This document shows, one piece after another, positions 2,924 through 36,280 of a DNA stretch of 38,584 nucleotides; the stretch's first letter is position 1, and every line of letters begins with the position of its first letter. The notes beneath the pieces were generated by a model that ran no database searches, was not told where the DNA came from, and saw nothing but the letters and a program-made list of their open reading frames with translations. The stretch spans positions 1 to 38,584 of the forward strand of contig JADGAY010000016.1 in the NCBI GenBank assembly GCA_015231775.1. The letters are read 5' to 3'. A program made the position numbers and the translations under genes. The DNA is from Magnetococcales bacterium (GTDB lineage Bacteria; Pseudomonadota; Magnetococcia; Magnetococcales; Magnetaquicoccaceae).

Positions 2924-3840
2924 AGACCCGGTTACGCCTTTTCATAGGGATTCTGGCCTGTTGGCTCGCATGGCCGATGGGGGTGGAAGGGGGCTATCTC
3001 AACGCCCCGGAGGCGGTTTTTTCGTTTGCGTTGGATCTGGAGAAACAGAACGACCACAAACGGGCGGCCACCGAGTTCGGACGGTATGTGTCGGCGGCGC
3101 GGCATGGTTCGAATACGGAATTTCCCAGAGTCGAGGAGGCAATGTTCCGTCTGGCCGTGAATCTGGCCCAGGCCAACGAGACGGATGGTGCGTTGCGGGC
3201 CTTCTCCGATCTGGGCGCGGCCTATCCGAAGAGTCCTTTCATTCCGATGGCTCTGTTGCGCATGGGGTTGATCTACGAGCGGGCCGGGGCGCGTGAGGAG
3301 GCGGTGCGGCGCTATCAGCGGCTTGCCGAGATGGGCATGGAGACCGAGTTGAGCGCCTTGTCCCGTCTGCGTCTGGCGTGGCTGGCCATGGGCAAGCCGG
3401 GGGAGGAGGAGATGGCCCGCGGTCATTTGCAGGCGGTGGAGCATCCGAAGTTGAAAGAACCGGTTCGCGAATTGATTCGTGAGCTGGATCATCTTTCCAA
3501 GCTCCCTTACAAGGATCCGTGGATCTCGGGGTTGTTGACGGCGGCGGTACCGGGGGCCGGACATCTCTATCTGGATCGTGCGGAGGATGCGGGGATGGCG
3601 TTGCTCTCCAATGGATTGCTGCTGGCTGGGACGATCCAGGCCTTTTCCAAGGGGATTTCCGGGTTGGGCGCGGCGTTGGGGGTGGTGGAGCTGGGTTGGT
3701 ATTCGGGCACGATTTTCAGTGCGGTGAGCTTGACCCACAAGCAGAATCAGCGTATCCGCGAGGACCATTTGAACCATATCTGGCAGTTGCAGCAGCCCAA
3801 GATCGAGACGATCGGGCTGGAGATGGAGTGGCGGTATTAG
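2920..3840 (+). CDS. TPR-repeat membrane protein with DUF5683-like C-terminal region
   Basis: The first 25 residues form a signal peptide or membrane anchor (hydrophobic core 'LFIGILACWLAWPMG'). Residues of about 30-190 are helical repeats of the tetratricopeptide type, for example 'PMALLRMGLIYERAGAREEAVRRYQRLAEMG', whose spacing suits Tol-Pal YbgF-like or outer-membrane assembly TPRs. The C-terminal third has 'AAVPGAGHLYLDRAEDAG' followed by hydrophobic stretches. That pattern is seen in DUF5683-like membrane proteins. It overlaps gspF by 4 nt, so it may assist the secretion or pilus system, but no specific role can be read from the sequence. An intrinsic terminator follows. Confidence 0.75.
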   Translation: MKTRLRLFIGILACWLAWPMGVEGGYLNAPEAVFSFALDLEKQNDHKRAATEFGRYVSAARHGSNTEFPRVEEAMFRLAVNLAQANETDGALRAFSDLGAAYPKSPFIPMALLRMGLIYERAGAREEAVRRYQRLAEMGMETELSALSRLRLAWLAMGKPGEEEMARGHLQAVEHPKLKEPVRELIRELDHLSKLPYKDPWISGLLTAAVPGAGHLYLDRAEDAGMALLSNGLLLAGTIQAFSKGISGLGAALGVVELGWYSGTIFSAVSLTHKQNQRIREDHLNHIWQLQQPKIETIGLEMEWRY

Positions 3841-27926: not shown

Positions 27927-29438
27927 ATGGGCGTGGAGCTTCCCAAGATTCTGATCGTCGATGACGAGACCACCAACATTGACGTGTTGGTGGGGCTTCT
28001 GGAAGAGGAGTGCAAGATCGTGGTCGCCAAGAACGGCGAACAGGCGGTCCGGCGCGCCCTGGTCAAGCCCCATCCGGATCTGATCCTGCTCGACATCGTG
28101 TTGCCCGACATCGACGGCTTCGAGGTGTGCCGGCGGTTGAAGGAGAACCCCGAGACCCGCGACATTCCCATCATCTTCATCACCGGCAAGGAGTCGGAAC
28201 AGGATGAAACCCGCGGATTGTCGGTGGGCGCGGTGGATTTCATCCGCAAGCCGTTCAGTCCGGTGGTGGCCCTGGCGCGCATCCAGACCCATCTGGCCCT
28301 GCAACGGCAGAAGGCCCATCTTCTGGCGCTCAACGAACTCAAGAACCGGTTTCTGGCCATGGCGGCCCATGACCTGCGCAATCCCCTCATCTCCATCGCC
28401 GGCCTGAGCGAAATCCTGCTGACCATGCCCCTCGACGAGCAGGAGAAACGCAGTTTCATCCAGTCCATACACGATGTGGCCGGCCAGATGCTCAAGCTGA
28501 TCCACGATCTTCTGGATGTCAGCACCATCGAATCCGGCGCCTTTGCCCTGGAGAAGCGTCCCACCGATCTCGCCACGCTGATTGGCGAGCGGGTGGCGTT
28601 GCTGCGGATCCCCGCGCGGGAGAAGGGGGTGACGATTCGGGATGAGCTTCCGTCGATGGCGCCCGTCGCCCTGGATCCGGACCGGTTTGCCCAGGTGGTC
28701 GATAACCTGGTCGGCAATGCCATCAAGTTCTCGCCGGTCGGGTCCGAGGTCACCGTGCGCTGCGGGTGGCTCCACGATCGCTCTTTCCTTCAGGTGGTCG
28801 ATCAGGGGCCTGGCATTCCGGATGCGGAGCGTCATCGGCTCTTCGGGGTGTTCCAGCGACTGAGCACCCGGCCCACGGCCCAGGAAAAGAGTACCGGACT
28901 GGGGTTGTCCATTGTCAAACGGATCGTCGATGCCCATCATGGTGAGATCGTGGTGGCGAACAATGCCGATCGCGGGGCGATCTTCACCTGTTTCCTCCCG
29001 GAAGGCTCCCGGGAGACCATCGCCATCCGTGCGCGTCCGGCCCTTGCCGCGGGCAAGGCGTTGCGGATGCTGCTGATCGACGACGATCCGGTATTGCGTC
29101 TCATGTATGCCAAGGCGTTTGCCGATGAGGGGTTCGAATGGGTCGGGGAGGCCAGGGATGGACAGGAGGGGGTGTCGCTCTATCAGGCATTGAAACCCGA
29201 TGTGGTGATCTGCGATATTGAGATGCCGGTGATGGATGGATTGGAGACGCTCAAGGCGTTGTTGGCCGTGGATCCCAATGCCTGCGTGATCATTCTGACC
29301 TCCTCCGTGGATCAGGAGAAGTGGACCATCTGCCTGGCCCATGGCGCCCGTTATACCCTGCGCAAGGATACGCCGTTTCCGGAGATCCGTCGCAAGGTGC
29401 TGGAGATCTGGAAGGAATACCAGGGCCGATTTGCTTGA
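27927..29438 (+). CDS. REC-histidine kinase-REC hybrid protein
   Basis: A 503-residue protein. The N-terminal REC has phosphosite 'LLDIVLPDIDG'. HisKA has 'MAAHDLRNPL', a HisKA variant with D in place of E after the His. The ATPase has 'NLVGNAIKFS' (N), 'VVDQGPGIP' (G1) and 'STGLGLSIV' (G2). The C-terminal REC has 'LIDDDP' and 'VICDIEMPVMDG'. There is no sensory or membrane domain, so phosphorylation of the first REC probably controls the kinase. It starts at the ATG at 27927 after GAGGAG, not at the TTG 3 nt earlier. Confidence 0.92.
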   Translation: MGVELPKILIVDDETTNIDVLVGLLEEECKIVVAKNGEQAVRRALVKPHPDLILLDIVLPDIDGFEVCRRLKENPETRDIPIIFITGKESEQDETRGLSVGAVDFIRKPFSPVVALARIQTHLALQRQKAHLLALNELKNRFLAMAAHDLRNPLISIAGLSEILLTMPLDEQEKRSFIQSIHDVAGQMLKLIHDLLDVSTIESGAFALEKRPTDLATLIGERVALLRIPAREKGVTIRDELPSMAPVALDPDRFAQVVDNLVGNAIKFSPVGSEVTVRCGWLHDRSFLQVVDQGPGIPDAERHRLFGVFQRLSTRPTAQEKSTGLGLSIVKRIVDAHHGEIVVANNADRGAIFTCFLPEGSRETIAIRARPALAAGKALRMLLIDDDPVLRLMYAKAFADEGFEWVGEARDGQEGVSLYQALKPDVVICDIEMPVMDGLETLKALLAVDPNACVIILTSSVDQEKWTICLAHGARYTLRKDTPFPEIRRKVLEIWKEYQGRFA

Positions 29439-29488
29439 TACGTTTCGGATGGCCGGCAGGCCTATGCTATCTGACAAGAGACCGCGAC

Positions 29489-32149
29489 ATGCAAGAAACT
29501 CAAGGCAGGATCCTGATAGTCGATGACGAGCGGACGCATCTGGAGACACTGACCGGTCTGCTCGACGGAACCTATCGGACCGTGATGGCCGAGAGCGGCG
29601 CCGAGGCGTTGCGGTTGGTCCGAGAGGATCCCAAGCCCGATCTGATCCTGTTGGATGTCGCCATGCCCGGCATGGATGGTCTGGAGGTGTGCCGATGTCT
29701 CAAGGCCGATCCGGAAACCCGCGGGATCACGGTGATCTTCGTGGCCGAGCGGGATCGAACCGAGGATGAGGATATCGGGCTCTCCCTGGGCGCGGTGGAT
29801 TATCTGTTCAAGCCGATCCGCCCCGCGCTTTTGCGCGCGCGCGTGCGCAACCACATGGCTCTGGCCGATCAGAGCCGGGTGCTGGAGCGCCAGGTGGCCG
29901 AACGCACCCAGGCCCTGGAGCAGGCCAAGGAGGCGTTGCGCTCCTCCATGGGCAATCTCCTGACCATCCGGGTGGGGCCGGGGGTCTATTGGCTGCAGAT
30001 TCCCGAGGCCGGACTCTTCATCCTGTGCGGCTGTCCCAGCGAGGTGGTCAAGCTTCTGATGCACAAGGGTCTCAACGCCCCGGCCATCAAGAACGGGGTC
30101 CACTTCGAGACCGGTCCGAACGTGATCCTTCTGTCGGATCTGTTGATGCAGAACGGCGGCTTCTCCAACATGGCCGAGTTCCCGGTGTTGCAGATGCTCT
30201 ACCGGCAGGGGATGATCCTGCCGGGTCATCCGAACAACACCGGGGTCAAACCGATGTTGATGGGCGCGGAGGATCAGGTCACGGCGCAGTTGGCCTATAT
30301 CCACCGTGGGAACTACGGACTCTCCCGCGAGGAGCTTGAAGAGTCCGGCGTGGACGCCGAGAGCGTCGAGATGATGATGCGCATCAAGCTGCAGTTCGCC
30401 TTCGGGCGGATTCGCGAGCCCTCGGAGTTTCTCGATACCCTGGTGGTCACGGACAAACCCAGGGAGATCCGCAATGGCGCGACCATCCAGCGGGTGGGTT
30501 CCAACCGTTTTCGCATCGCCTTTCGCGATGAGAGCGCCGAGATCGATCTGAATCTGCCCAAGGATACGGTCTACAAATCCCCCTATCCGTTGGGATTCCA
30601 TCGGGTGCCGCGCCACTACTTCGCGGTGCTGCACACCGGCGAGGGGGATGGCTGGGATCCGGAGCGTCCCAGCATGAGCAGCGTGCTGATGTTCCAGGGG
30701 CGGTTCTACCTCATCGATGCCATCCCCGGCGTGCTCAACGTGCTGACCGCCATGGGCATCGACATCAGCGAGGTGGAGGGTATCTTCCACACCCACGCCC
30801 ACGACGATCACTTCGCCGGTCTTCCGGCCCTGATCCAGACCGATCGTCGCCTCAAGTATTACGCCACCCCCATGGTCCGCTCGTCGGTGGCCAAGAAACT
30901 GGCCGCGCTCATGTCCTTTGACGAGGACAAGTTCAACCAGTTCTTCGAGATCCACGATCTGGAGTTCGATGTCTGGAACCAGTGCGGGGGGTTGGAGGTG
31001 CGCCCGATCTACTCGCCCCACCCGGTGGAGACCTCGCTTCTGCTCTTTCGCACCCTGGCCGAGGATGGCTACCGCACCTATGGCCACTGGACCGATCTGA
31101 CCTCCTTCTCGGTACTCGACCGGATGACCAATCCGGGACCGTTCGCGGTCCCCAGGGAGCAGATCGAGCGCATCAAGGCGAGTTACCACTTCCCGGCGGA
31201 TCTGAAAAAGCTCGACGTCGGCGGCGGGATGATCCACGGCATGGCCCAGGACTTCAAGGGCGATCCCTCCGGACGGCGCATCCTGGCCCATCTCTCCCGC
31301 GATCTGACCACCGAGGAGATGGAGATTGGCTCGGAGTCCACCTTCGGCGCCATGGATATCCTGATTCCGGGTGAGCAGGACTACCGTCGGCAGCGGGCCT
31401 TCTACTATCTGCGCGACCTCTTCCCGGAGATCTCCCACGACGACATCCGCATGCTGATCAACGGGCCGATCATCAAGTACAACGCCGGCTCGTTCATACG
31501 CTGGGAGTCGGATGCCCACGATTTCGTGGAGATGACCATCTGCGGGGATATCGTCTACCTGGATGCCGATTTCGGCATTCGTTACCATTTGGGTTTCGGC
31601 TCGTTCATGGGGTTGCAGAGGATCTTTCCGGAGATCCAGTCCGACGAGGGTGGGTATCGTTCGGTCTCTCACAGCGCGGTGTTGCGGATTCCCAGCCGGA
31701 TGTTGCGGATCTTTTTGCAAAACCGTGGGCTGTACGCCAGCCTGGCCGGGGTGTTGGAGCAGATCCGCTTCCTGCGGCACACCTGGCTGTTCGGGGAACA
31801 GACCTCCTTCGTCTTCCTGGCCACCCTCACCCGCCATATCGAGACGATCCGCGAGGAACGGGGGGCCTGGATCGAAATCACCGAGGATCCGCCGGCGTTG
31901 TGGCTGGTCTCCTCGGGTCGGGTGGCGATGTGCGATGGGACGGGCGCGGTCGTGGGGGTGATCGAGGCCGGGGGATTCTTCGGCGAATGGGCCTATTTGA
32001 ATTCAGGGCGTTGTCCGTGGCGCTTCCGGATGGAGGAGTCCGGCGATCTGGTGCGCTTGTCGTGGCCTGGCCTGCTGGATGCGCCGATCATCCATTGGAA
32101 GATGCTCGAGACCCTTCAGAAGCGCGCCAGCCTCGCTCAGCCTTCGTGA
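29489..32149 (+). CDS. REC-metallo-beta-lactamase fold-cyclic-nucleotide-binding-like response regulator
   Basis: An 886-residue protein. The REC domain (1-125) has phosphosite 'LLDVAMPGMDG', but the usual Thr is Ala ('VIFVAER'). A coiled coil follows (about 125-155). A long region then starts like an MBL fold ('GPGVYWLQIPEAGLFILCGCP') and holds a large insertion before the metal motif HTHAHDDH (434-441, HxHxDH). Further candidate ligands are in 'SPHPVETS', 'GHWTDLTS' and 'GGGMIHG'. The last 110 or so residues resemble a cyclic-nucleotide-binding domain ('FFGEWAYLNSGR'), with Cys after the phosphate-binding Arg. The frame is open to 29321; the ATG at 29489 gives a normal REC start. MBL-fold di-iron ODP proteins sense oxygen in some chemotaxis systems, so sensor or hydrolase are both possible. 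Confidence 0.85.
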   Translation: MQETQGRILIVDDERTHLETLTGLLDGTYRTVMAESGAEALRLVREDPKPDLILLDVAMPGMDGLEVCRCLKADPETRGITVIFVAERDRTEDEDIGLSLGAVDYLFKPIRPALLRARVRNHMALADQSRVLERQVAERTQALEQAKEALRSSMGNLLTIRVGPGVYWLQIPEAGLFILCGCPSEVVKLLMHKGLNAPAIKNGVHFETGPNVILLSDLLMQNGGFSNMAEFPVLQMLYRQGMILPGHPNNTGVKPMLMGAEDQVTAQLAYIHRGNYGLSREELEESGVDAESVEMMMRIKLQFAFGRIREPSEFLDTLVVTDKPREIRNGATIQRVGSNRFRIAFRDESAEIDLNLPKDTVYKSPYPLGFHRVPRHYFAVLHTGEGDGWDPERPSMSSVLMFQGRFYLIDAIPGVLNVLTAMGIDISEVEGIFHTHAHDDHFAGLPALIQTDRRLKYYATPMVRSSVAKKLAALMSFDEDKFNQFFEIHDLEFDVWNQCGGLEVRPIYSPHPVETSLLLFRTLAEDGYRTYGHWTDLTSFSVLDRMTNPGPFAVPREQIERIKASYHFPADLKKLDVGGGMIHGMAQDFKGDPSGRRILAHLSRDLTTEEMEIGSESTFGAMDILIPGEQDYRRQRAFYYLRDLFPEISHDDIRMLINGPIIKYNAGSFIRWESDAHDFVEMTICGDIVYLDADFGIRYHLGFGSFMGLQRIFPEIQSDEGGYRSVSHSAVLRIPSRMLRIFLQNRGLYASLAGVLEQIRFLRHTWLFGEQTSFVFLATLTRHIETIREERGAWIEITEDPPALWLVSSGRVAMCDGTGAVVGVIEAGGFFGEWAYLNSGRCPWRFRMEESGDLVRLSWPGLLDAPIIHWKMLETLQKRASLAQPS

Positions 32150-32830: not shown

Positions 32831-33352
32831 ATGGAGATCATCCGTCTCGATCCTGGGGAACTCTACATCGGCACCGCCTCCGCCGAGGTGCATACCATTC
32901 TGGGTTCTTGCGTTTCTATCATTTTCTTCCATGAACGGCTCAAATTGGGCGCGATCTGCCATGGTCGCAAGCCCGATCATGCGTGCCGGCCCGCCTCCAC
33001 GGGGTTGAAGGTGTGTCGCGAGTTGGGCGATCATGTGCGTTGTTCGTTGGAGTTCATGCTGGCCTGGTTCGACACGCGCGGGGTGCCACGATCGGAGTTG
33101 GAGGTCAAGTTGTTCGGTGGGGCGATGATGTTCGCCAATCCGTTGGGGGGCGGATCCGGTCTGGGGATGGGCAAGCGCAACATCGACACGGCCATGGAGT
33201 TCATTCGTACCCGGCGGTTGCATTTGACCGCCTCGGACGTGGGTGGGCCGTGGGCCAGACAGATCGTCTTCTTCACCGATACCGGGGAGATCCGGTTGAA
33301 AAGAATTCGCAAGTCGGCCCAGGAGTTGGACGGTTTGGAGGAGTTGTGTTGA
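32831..33352 (+). CDS. cheD: chemoreceptor glutamine deamidase CheD
   Basis: A 173-residue CheD. The catalytic Cys is C27 in 'ILGSCVSI' and the catalytic His is H44 in 'AICHGRKP', the same positions as in the characterised Thermotoga enzyme. 'VKLFGGAMMF' and 'GKRNIDTAMEFI' are family motifs. CheD deamidates receptor glutamines and is held or released by CheC. No receptor gene lies nearby. The stop runs straight into a G7 tract (GAGGGGGGGAG). Confidence 0.92.
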   Translation: MEIIRLDPGELYIGTASAEVHTILGSCVSIIFFHERLKLGAICHGRKPDHACRPASTGLKVCRELGDHVRCSLEFMLAWFDTRGVPRSELEVKLFGGAMMFANPLGGGSGLGMGKRNIDTAMEFIRTRRLHLTASDVGGPWARQIVFFTDTGEIRLKRIRKSAQELDGLEELC

Positions 33353-33415
33353 GGGGGGGAGTGGTCGCCTCCGCTTCCCAGCAATCATTCGATTTCATCT
33401 GAAACGGAATACGCC

Positions 33416-34563: not shown

Positions 34564-35031
34564 CCTGTTTGGCGCCCATTGGTTCGTTCCTGGTTGATCA
34601 CTGTTTCGTTACAGGGTGTCCCTTTCCAGAGGCAGGGCGTTCCTTCCGTCACGCTGCCCGGCACGACCGTGGAACTTCCGAAGGTAGGTCCACGGACGGG
34701 GGTGTGGGGGCTCTCCCCCCATCATGCCCGTTACCCCATCTTCCTGGCTCCTGTTCTGGAGCGAAATGTTTCCAACGTTTGGTGGTGTTCACGGTTTTGA
34801 GCGCACGCGAAAATTTTTCGTTCTCCACGGCATTCTTGTAAAAAAAATCACCACCACCTGTTAACTGATTGATCATCAATTGTTTCTATTTAAGAATTTG
34901 CTGATGGATTTTATATTGCAGTGCAAAATCAATGAAAATTTTGCACCAGTCGGAAAGCGGATTTTTCTCGACCTTCTATGCTAATTCATTGATTTTTTTA
35001 ATAATAATCGATATTTTCAATCTTGGCACGT
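34564..35031. other. gene-free, AT-rich stretch after acpS
   Basis: No credible gene is seen. A long imperfect G/C-rich hairpin lies at 34696-34731 (arms ACGGG and CCCGT, with CTCT between G5 and C6 runs). From about 34800 the DNA becomes strongly AT-rich, unlike its surroundings, with A and T tracts and several short palindromes. It leads into the FNR-type box and the hairpin array. Confidence 0.5.
34921..34946. promoter_or_regulatory. inverted repeat in AT-rich region
   Basis: GTGCAAAAT (34921-34929) and ATTTTGCAC (34938-34946) are perfect 9-bp arms around 8 nt. TATATT lies just upstream (34912-34917). It could be an operator. Confidence 0.4.
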
Positions 35032-35051
35032 GATTTGATATTTATCAAATC
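35032..35051. promoter_or_regulatory. FNR-type binding site upstream of the hairpin array
   Basis: The core TTGAT-ATTT-ATCAA (35035-35048) is a perfect match to the FNR consensus, inside a larger palindrome GATTTGATA-TT-TATCAAATC. If class II (centre at -41.5), the start would be near 35083, and TACGGA at 35071-35076 would be the -10, which is weak. It points to oxygen-dependent control of the array downstream. Confidence 0.6.
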
Positions 35052-35149
35052 AAGGAACAAGCGTAAGAACTACGGATGGTTCAAGCTTTTGTGCGGCAGT
35101 GAGCATGTGCCGTGGCAGTTGTGATGCAGCAGTAGAAGTGGAAGGAACT

Positions 35150-35215
35150 GGGCCAGGTTCGCGCATGGCCCGGATCAAGGGTTGGATACCCTCCCCCCCA
35201 TCCAACCCTTGATCC
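35150..35215 (+). repeat. hairpin array unit 1
   Basis: Hairpin A has 6-bp arms GGGCCA (35150-35155) and TGGCCC (35166-35171). Hairpin B has perfect 16-bp arms (35172-35187, 35200-35215) with loop ACCCTCCCCCCC. C-rich sequence without a T tract follows. Confidence 0.75.
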
Positions 35216-35260
35216 TCCTCTCCTCCTTGAAAAGGGGAGTATGAAAACAAATTTCGAGAA

Positions 35261-35325
35261 GGGACGCTAGCCGTCCCGACCAAGGGTCGGCCTCCCCCCC
35301 CTCAAGCTGACCCTTGGTTCTTTTT
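35261..35325 (+). terminator. hairpin array unit 2 with T tract
   Basis: Hairpin A has 6-bp arms GGGACG (35261-35266) and CGTCCC (35272-35277). Hairpin B has 13-bp arms (35279-35291, 35306-35318) with one G-T pair and loop CTCCCCCCCCTCAA. TTTTT follows at 35321-35325. Confidence 0.75.
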
Positions 35326-35334
35326 CATGGCAAT

Positions 35335-35399
35335 GGGACGCTGGACGTCCCAACCAAGGGTCGGCCTCCCCCCCCTCAAGCTGACCCTTGGTACTTTTT
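35335..35399 (+). terminator. hairpin array unit 3 with T tract, 74 bp after unit 2
   Basis: It repeats unit 2 at a 74-bp period. Hairpin A is 35335-35340/35346-35351 with a different 5-nt loop. Hairpin B is 35353-35365/35380-35392 with the same C-rich loop. TTTTT lies at 35395-35399. Confidence 0.75.
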
Positions 35400-35409
35400 C
35401 ATCAAGACC

Positions 35410-35481
35410 GAGGCGTGGTTCGTCCATGCCTCCTCCAGGGATCCGGCCTCCCCCCCCTCAAGCCGGATCCCTGCTTTTTTT
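35410..35481 (+). terminator. hairpin array unit 4 with T tract
   Basis: Hairpin A has 9-bp arms (35410-35418, 35424-35432) with one wobble pair and loop TTCGT. Hairpin B has perfect 12-bp arms (CAGGGATCCGGC 35436-35447, 35462-35473), a stem unlike units 2 and 3, but the identical loop. Seven Ts follow (35475-35481). It lies 14 nt from the convergent rnhB stop. Confidence 0.8.
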
Positions 35482-35494
35482 ACCGATCCCCCTC

Positions 35495-36280
35495 TCAACA
35501 CAATCCCAGCAAGCGTGCAACCGGGCCATAGCCGCGCCGATGCTCCGGGGTCACACCCAACCGTTCCAACGCCGTCAGATGCGCTTGGGTGGGATAGCCG
35601 GCATTGTGCTCCCAGCCGTAACCCGGATAGCGCCGCGCCAATTCCGCCATGATCCCATCCCGGTGGGTCTTGGCCAGAATCGCCGCCGCCGCGATCGAGG
35701 CGGACAACTGATCTCCCTTGACCACCGCCCGCGCCGGGCAGGGGAGTCCGGGGGGGAGGTCGCGACCATCCACCAGCACGAATCCAGGCACGATCCCCGC
35801 ATCCGGCACGGCGGGGGAACGGTTCACACCCGCCAAGCCCGTAGCTGGCATTCCGCCAGGCGCGGCAGGGCAATCCGCGGCGTTCTCTCGGCCCGTGGCA
35901 GACCGCACTCCAGTGGCAAGGGAAGCGACACTGGGAGCGCGCAACGCCTCCACCGCGCGCAGCATGGCCAGAAGCGAGGCGCGACGGATGTTGAGCCGGT
36001 CGATCTCCACCACCGCGCACGCACCGATGCCGTAAGCGAGGGCCTCGGCACGGATCGCAACAGCCAAAGTATCCCGTTGCGCGGCGGTCAGACGCTTGGA
36101 GTCGTCGATGTTGGATAGGGAAGGGGGGAGGGCCCGGAAGGCGGGCAAAATGACAGCGGCGGCCACGACCGGACCGCACAAAGGGCCGCGACCGGCTTCG
36201 TCCACGCCGCAAATCAGCGTAAAGCCGGTCGCTTGAAGTTCCTGTTCCAGGTCGAGACCTGGACGAATACGGGCTACCAG
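35495..36280 (-). CDS. rnhB: ribonuclease HII, probable non-ATG start and an internal insertion
   Basis: RNase HII cleaves the RNA strand of RNA-DNA hybrids. The catalytic 'VDEAGRGPL' is at the N terminus, with Asp in 'VDGRDLP' and '[21 protein letters not shown]' following. The first ATG/GTG/TTG codon in frame is a GTG at 36205, which would start inside the catalytic strand. The same frame stays open upstream with family-like residues ('[10 protein letters not shown]...LICG'). A CTG at 36280, 8 nt after GGGAG and overlapping the rplS stop, is my preferred start (261 residues). About 45 Ala/Gly/Pro-rich residues between 'AVEALRAP' and 'FVLVDGRD' are extra for the family. It is the last gene of the operon. 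Confidence 0.9.

Follow-up and report, generated by a model that had tools for sequence, protein, structure and literature searches.

Tandem hairpins with C-rich loops behind a sigma-54-type promoter point to a family of small regulatory RNAs in Magnetococcales

Do four tandem hairpin units with C-rich loops, lying behind a perfect FNR-type palindrome, form a regulatory RNA, and what would switch it on? This question is raised by a locus in the window analysed here, i.e., the whole stretch of 38,584 nucleotides from a Magnetococcales bacterium (genome G000), in which the initial annotation had seen oxygen-controlled small RNAs whose loops could pair with G-rich ribosome binding sites. The locus was compared with those of relatives from the same genus (g1), from another genus of family f1 (g2), and from the genera g9 (family f8) and g14 (family f13).

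The hairpin array is real. Both in the sequence and in computed folds, positions 35150-35481 of the plus strand comprise four tandem units, in each of which a short hairpin precedes a long one whose loop is rich in C (Table 1). As described initially, units 2-4 all have precisely CTCCCCCCCCTCAA as their loop, and the three copies of this sequence present in the whole genome all lie in these units, whereas unit 1 deviates in its loop and is not followed by a T tract. The T tracts after units 2-4 (5, 5 and 7 nt), the stem of unit 4, which is unlike that of units 2 and 3 and nevertheless keeps its pairing, and the 74-nt period from unit 2 to unit 3 were likewise recovered. The fold of 35060-35490 was better than those of shuffled sequences (z -7.4; 0/100 shuffles as good). 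The stretch 35140-35485 yielded four hairpins that combine 12 uninterrupted pairs with a loop of 10-16 nt containing eight or more C; none appeared in any of 300 dinucleotide shuffles. A terminator scan of the window, which models loops of 3-8 nt, called no terminator; the long hairpin of unit 4, together with the seven Ts behind it, is likely to be one.

Table 1. Coordinates of the array and of its upstream region in the window.
Feature	Position	Strand	Basis or remark
Conserved upstream element TGTAAAAAAAATCACCACC	34837-34855	+	13/19 columns invariant in nine aligned g1 regions
Inverted repeat GTGCAAAAT...ATTTTGCAC	34921-34946	+	Candidate enhancer (activator) site
Sigma-54-type promoter TTGGCACG-N4-TTGAT	35023-35039	+	GG at 35025-35026; -12 GA at 35037-35038
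FNR box TTGATATTTATCAA (TTGAT-N4-ATCAA)	35035-35048	+	Overlaps the -12 element
5' hairpin GAACTACGGATGGTTC, GGA in loop	35067-35082	+	GGA invariant in 9/9 g1 loci
Unit 1, short hairpin	35150-35171	+	Fold
Unit 1, long hairpin (16 bp), loop ACCCTCCCCCCC	35172-35215	+	Fold and R1 match
Extra small hairpin between units 1 and 2	35220-35239	+	Fold
Unit 2, short hairpin	35261-35277	+	Fold
Unit 2, long hairpin, loop CTCCCCCCCCTCAA	35278-35319	+	Fold and R1 match; T5 at 35321-35325
Unit 3, short hairpin	35335-35351	+	Fold
Unit 3, long hairpin, loop CTCCCCCCCCTCAA	35353-35392	+	Fold and R1 match; T5 at 35395-35399
Unit 4, short hairpin	35410-35432	+	Fold
Unit 4, long hairpin, loop CTCCCCCCCCTCAA, own stem	35436-35473	+	Fold and R1 match; T7 at 35475-35481

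The array recurs in most genomes of the genus. It lies 3' of rnhB, in convergent orientation, in G001, G002, G003, G006, G009 and G010, and on a contig separate from that of rnhB in G004 and G005. The long hairpin was cast as a covariance model (R1, built from 31 sequences), which was searched under strict filters against 61 genomes, 48 of the order and 13 of the phylum. Matches at E 0.01 or better were obtained in 14 of them, namely nine of the 11 g1 genomes and five of the eight g14 genomes, and none at this threshold in the remaining 47; the two g1 genomes without a match are 57% and 76% complete. This model search of relatives, which the initial annotation had asked for, returned a single locus in each of the nine matched g1 genomes. 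A looser pattern (a C-run before a T tract) matched 13 of 41 genomes, mostly at unrelated places, and T tracts are weak or missing after several hairpins of the relatives.

For the stems, covariation was assessed on those 35 of 70 R1 matches whose E-value was at most 1e-6, many of the remaining matches being the same hairpins read on the opposite strand. In line with the non-coding RNA proposed initially, 11 of the 14 stem pairs were changed on both sides. In this alignment, which is fitted to the R1 model, the covariation score was 0.284 compared to 0.187 in shuffles (0/500 as high), and 78.5% of the cells were pairing, compared to 71.5%. The MAFFT alignment behind the R1 model (A4) gave the same covariation picture, whereas the mixed-genus alignments A7 and A8 misaligned the g2 stems and were kept out of model building. 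Sliding the alignment by -1 still yielded a score of 0.212, an effect of bulged stems whose register differs. The count of further pair types was 21 against 19.2 in shuffles, 54 of 500 of which reached 21.

Related C-loop RNAs were seen in three genera besides g1, namely g2, g9 and g14. A model of the double-hairpin unit built from seven units (R2) matched six of 48 genomes, all of them in g2 (6/7 of this genus). Arrays were seen in at least two of the five g9 genomes, G037 and G041; the G041 locus has a GC content of 36%, and its loops keep C-runs of 9 and 10. The g14 RNA is a two-loop version that ends in a hairpin and a T-run, and the last hairpins of loci L261, L262 and L264 also precede T-runs. 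Further C-loop units were observed in G013 on contigs C10, C394 and C201 (L265-L267), so that one genome can hold several arrays. On the reverse strand of L152 (G037), at about 3150-3560, a long stretch of GCAGTATCGTAGTTGAAGTAACAAGAAGTGCAT-like repeats separates the promoter from the C-loop hairpins.

Upstream of the array, the sequence points to a sigma-54-type promoter (Table 1), from which transcription is predicted to begin close to 35050. In all nine g1 loci, the GG, C, C and TGATAT columns of this element were invariant, and a 17-nt element GG-N10-G(A/C) with sigma-54 spacing was present at 22/22 loci (nine g1, two g9, five g14 and six g2); these sites were picked by eye and their spacing was checked on five, so that this figure is a comparison and not a blind scan. 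At -12, the usual GC dinucleotide was confined to the six g2 loci, where the sites read TGGCACG-N5-TGC in five and TGGCACA-N5-TGC in the sixth, and was replaced by GA in the other 16 of the 22. A promoter pattern built on known members had eight sites in 61 genomes, all at C-loop arrays; seven of these were already known, and the eighth exposed the new array in G041. RpoN was encoded in all eight genomes tested, G000 included. In a scan with a sigma-70 model, four promoter-like sites were found in the window against 0.5 expected, one of them at 34890-34917 on the plus strand, which makes a second promoter possible.

The conserved control region starts at about 34837, further upstream than initially annotated, with the TGTAAAAAAAATCACCACC element, a presumed functional site. 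The inverted repeat at 34921-34946 is a likely candidate for an activator site. In seven of the nine g1 loci, a match of 11 nt with TTTTGCAC at its end begins 85-87 nt ahead of the promoter element; the two others have TTTTTCACC, and a TTTTnCACC motif upstream is invariant in all nine. In g14, the TTTTGCAC-ending match was present in 5/5 loci (L181-L185), starting 195-198 nt before the promoter element, some 110 nt more distant from it than in g1; the TTTTGCAC-type pattern was not found in the two g9 and six g2 loci. On their 3' side, the arrays of L160, L166, L261, L263 and L264 are repeatedly followed by TGCAAC-like and TTGCACC-like sites, which are perhaps sites of another activator for the next gene.

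A gene for an NtrC-type response regulator lies just upstream of the array, on the same strand, in most of the loci compared (15/22: 7/9 g1, 6/6 g2 and 2/2 g9). The G009 regulator contains, according to Pfam, a receiver, a sigma-54 activator domain and a Fis-type helix-turn-helix, and it is preceded by a histidine kinase with GAF/PAS domains; a kinase frame beside the regulator was also seen in G006 and G000. Orthologs with 84-92% identity to the G009 protein were present in nine array-bearing g1 genomes and were not found in two other g1 genomes, both incomplete. In each of the six array-bearing g2 genomes, an array is directly 3' of a regulator gene and in the same direction. In G005, about 3.8 kb separate the two. 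In G000, the regulator and kinase genes close contig C41 and the array is beside pdxJ-acpS, which implies either a rearrangement or a break between contigs. No regulator was found within about 1.5 kb of the array in the five g14 loci (L181-L185), where a similar promoter is kept, and none was matched on the array's contig in G035 and G039.

In a tree of 49 regulators, from which one duplicate row had been removed, the array-linked ones fell into three groups and not into one clade. The array label changed three times, compared to a mean of 14.4 when labels were shuffled, which indicates that array-linked regulators are clustered, yet not a single clade, and that the pairing of regulator and array arose or was lost more than once. 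Three labels were set by hand, G000 and G005 being counted as array-linked though not adjacent, and L265 (G013, C10) as not linked, though an R2 match lies about 1.9 kb 3' of it.

Because of the sigma-54-like promoter and the often adjoining sensor and regulator genes, we consider it very likely that the array represents a family of small regulatory RNAs. Our preferred reading, to which we assign a probability of about 0.7, is that of a tandem C-loop non-coding RNA with a sigma-54 promoter and an NtrC-type activator, which pairs with G-rich mRNAs. Its gene would span about 430 nt (about 35050-35481, plus strand), and its transcription would be switched on by the linked NtrC-type response regulator acting at the TTTTGCAC site. 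Each tandem unit would expose its C-rich loop on a very stable stem, and the C-loops would serve as seeds for pairing with G-rich stretches of target mRNAs such as Shine-Dalgarno regions, which would alter translation or stability, probably independently of Hfq. Extra units would provide more seeds per transcript.

With regard to targets, we counted GAGGGGGG-N(0-14)-ATG sites on both strands and in a reversed control. Observed and control counts in array-bearing genomes, where part of the matches comes from the opposite strand of the arrays themselves, were 80/30 (G000), 71/23 (G001), 85/22 (G002), 38/13 (G003), 58/14 (G006), 58/28 (G010), 13/9 (G041) and 63/20 (G045). In genomes in which no array was found, they were 83/29 (G018), 67/19 (G021), 6/2 (G023), 159/34 (G025), 87/48 (G027), 195/71 (G028), 74/18 (G032), 35/9 (G034), 66/16 (G036) and 91/62 (G038). 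G-run sites before ATG thus showed no array-specific enrichment across these eight array-bearing and ten other genomes. Pairing of the C-loops with G-rich ribosome binding sites, as suggested initially, is plausible, though this count lends it no support. A separate site, TTGAGGGGGGGAG (33349-33361, plus strand), lies over the stop codon of a cheD-like gene, 54 nt before pdxJ, and is complementary to the loop of units 2-4 but for one C. A site of this kind occurred in 4/300 simulated windows, a frequency uncorrected for motif choice. In 0.69 Mb of Magnetococcales loci, overlaps included, 13 distinct sites were present among the matches listed, by eye all in arrays, and none in 0.61 Mb of other taxa. 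TTGAGGGGGGGAG is a possible candidate target in a neighbouring transcript.

With regard to protein partners, Hfq (PF17209) was not found in six of eight genomes (G000, G001, G003, G006, G010 and G013, all from g1 or g2) and was found in G041 and G045, members of the same order. Five of the six genomes without detected Hfq are at least 96% complete; the absence in G000 is uncertain because this genome is 89% complete. CsrA was found in 8/8 genomes tested, and the 5' hairpin of the RNA, with its invariant GGA, resembles a CsrA site. The RNA could act mainly as a protein sponge, e.g., for CsrA via GGA hairpins, with the C-loops being structural. The GGA was inside a hairpin loop in four of five leader folds, only one of which clearly beat shuffles. 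However, CsrB-type sponges carry many CsrA sites, and one conserved GGA hairpin was noted here; what is repeated is the C-loop, in which GGA is missing, and the leader fold of the window was no better than shuffles (122/200 as good). We therefore regard a sponge as an unlikely main function.

The initial annotation rested its oxygen control on the TTGAT-N4-ATCAA palindrome, which is indeed present upstream of the array, perfect, and found once in the window against 0.04 expected. FNR-driven small RNAs read from this box are nonetheless very improbable: the palindrome was intact in only two of the nine g1 loci, those of the window and of G005, while the sigma-54-type columns were invariant in all nine, and the TTGAT of the -12 element serves as its first half-site. 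On these grounds, FNR was rejected as the conserved regulator; an extra FNR input in the window genome and in G005 is possible.

The T tracts after units 2-4 and the T-runs behind the last hairpins of the g14 loci, L261, L262 and L264 would also suit a row of inert intrinsic terminators, and tandem hairpins could likewise belong to a mobile repeat. We give such explanations very little credence, since neither predicts four consecutive units that follow a conserved control region and keep their loop, and R1 matched at a single locus in g1 genomes; repeats scattered genome-wide were discarded on the latter count. That the array is a coding repeat, or belongs to an overlapping frame, is extremely unlikely: open frames do cross it, but the 74-nt period and the changes that preserve pairing speak against it.

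In order to place the preferred reading, that of an NtrC-controlled C-loop RNA, among known systems, the array was compared with described RNA families. Rfam returned no family at gathering score in the window or in eight relative loci, save two tRNAs in the relatives, and the array itself had ten weak matches, up to E 5. The initial view that no named family has this layout holds in this respect; it does not hold for single traits, as gene order and promoter type are those of Pxr and the C-loop is that of GsrN, as far as the available parts of the papers cited below describe them. Among the weak matches, unit 4 aligned end to end with the 6C RNA (RF01066; 32.6 bits, E 0.029), which likewise has two hairpins, the longer one with a C-rich loop; this score is below the gathering score of 47. 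The 6C RNA is an actinobacterial family and is not known to be sigma-54 driven. The two-component systems CbrA/B and NtrB/C act with sigma-54, and no C-loop tandem units are known in the small RNAs CrcZ and NrsZ of Pseudomonas, neither of which was among the Rfam matches of the array or the relative loci. The available part of one review describes CrcZ and NrsZ as small RNAs under these two systems, a mode of control similar to that proposed here, and CrcZ, unlike the RNA proposed here, as sequestering Hfq (PMC6321483).

The closest known system is the PxrK/PxrR-Pxr module of Myxococcus xanthus and its relatives. In the available parts of four papers (PMC5568312, PMC5684412, PMC10217877, PMC11928866), the gene for the NtrC-like regulator PxrR, together with the kinase PxrK, is just upstream of Pxr, a 108-nt gene that is mostly single copy, with a predicted sigma-54 promoter, an enhancer region and stem-loops. 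The first loop is essential, one C-to-A change in it being inactivating, tandem Pxr paralogs in Cystobacter each have their own promoter, and M. xanthus is without hfq. A Pxr primer as printed (positions 13-33) ends in CCCCCC, which suggests that the first loop contains, or lies close to, a C-run; one computed target site involves mainly the third stem-loop and not the first (PMC11928866). By these descriptions, the likeness extends to regulator gene order (at 15 of the 22 loci, with this assembly and the five g14 loci among the exceptions), promoter type, stem-loops and tandem paralogs, and the array therefore probably works like Pxr; the difference is that here one promoter heads up to six C-loop units. 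For GsrN of Caulobacter, the accessible text reports six tandem loop Cs modelled to pair with G-rich mRNA sites and homologs typically near their own regulator genes (PMC5869019). GsrN thus shares the C-loop as a modelled seed and differs in that a general-stress sigma factor drives it and that there is one native gene.

Two observations concern neighbouring genes of the window. For the adjacent RNase HII (35498-36205, minus strand), whose nearest named record among the best 80 matches is Magnetococcales bacterium WMHbin3, alignments to most relatives break into two pieces at a gap near residues 95-138, G036 being one exception; this pattern suggests an insertion in this genome. Moreover, one frame at 29321-32149 (plus strand) combines a response-regulator receiver, a metallo-beta-lactamase fold and a sub-cutoff cyclic-nucleotide-binding match.

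In the title-level literature listings searched, this RNA family was not described and no study of small RNAs in Magnetococcales was apparent. The array thus adds an apparently unnamed RNA family with sigma-54-type promoters to a lineage with no apparent small-RNA study. The layout known from Pxr (sensor, NtrC regulator, sigma-54 promoter and small RNA) may extend beyond myxobacteria, and it may turn up again in genomes in which Hfq escapes detection. Rather more tentatively, and with considerable doubt, regulator and array might be a recurring Magnetococcales cassette, acquired or re-paired repeatedly, that would serve as an Hfq-free, dose-tunable block of G-rich ribosome binding sites equivalent to the Pxr checkpoint. 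With up to six seed copies, the arrays form a natural series in which the question of why small RNAs amplify in tandem could be tested.
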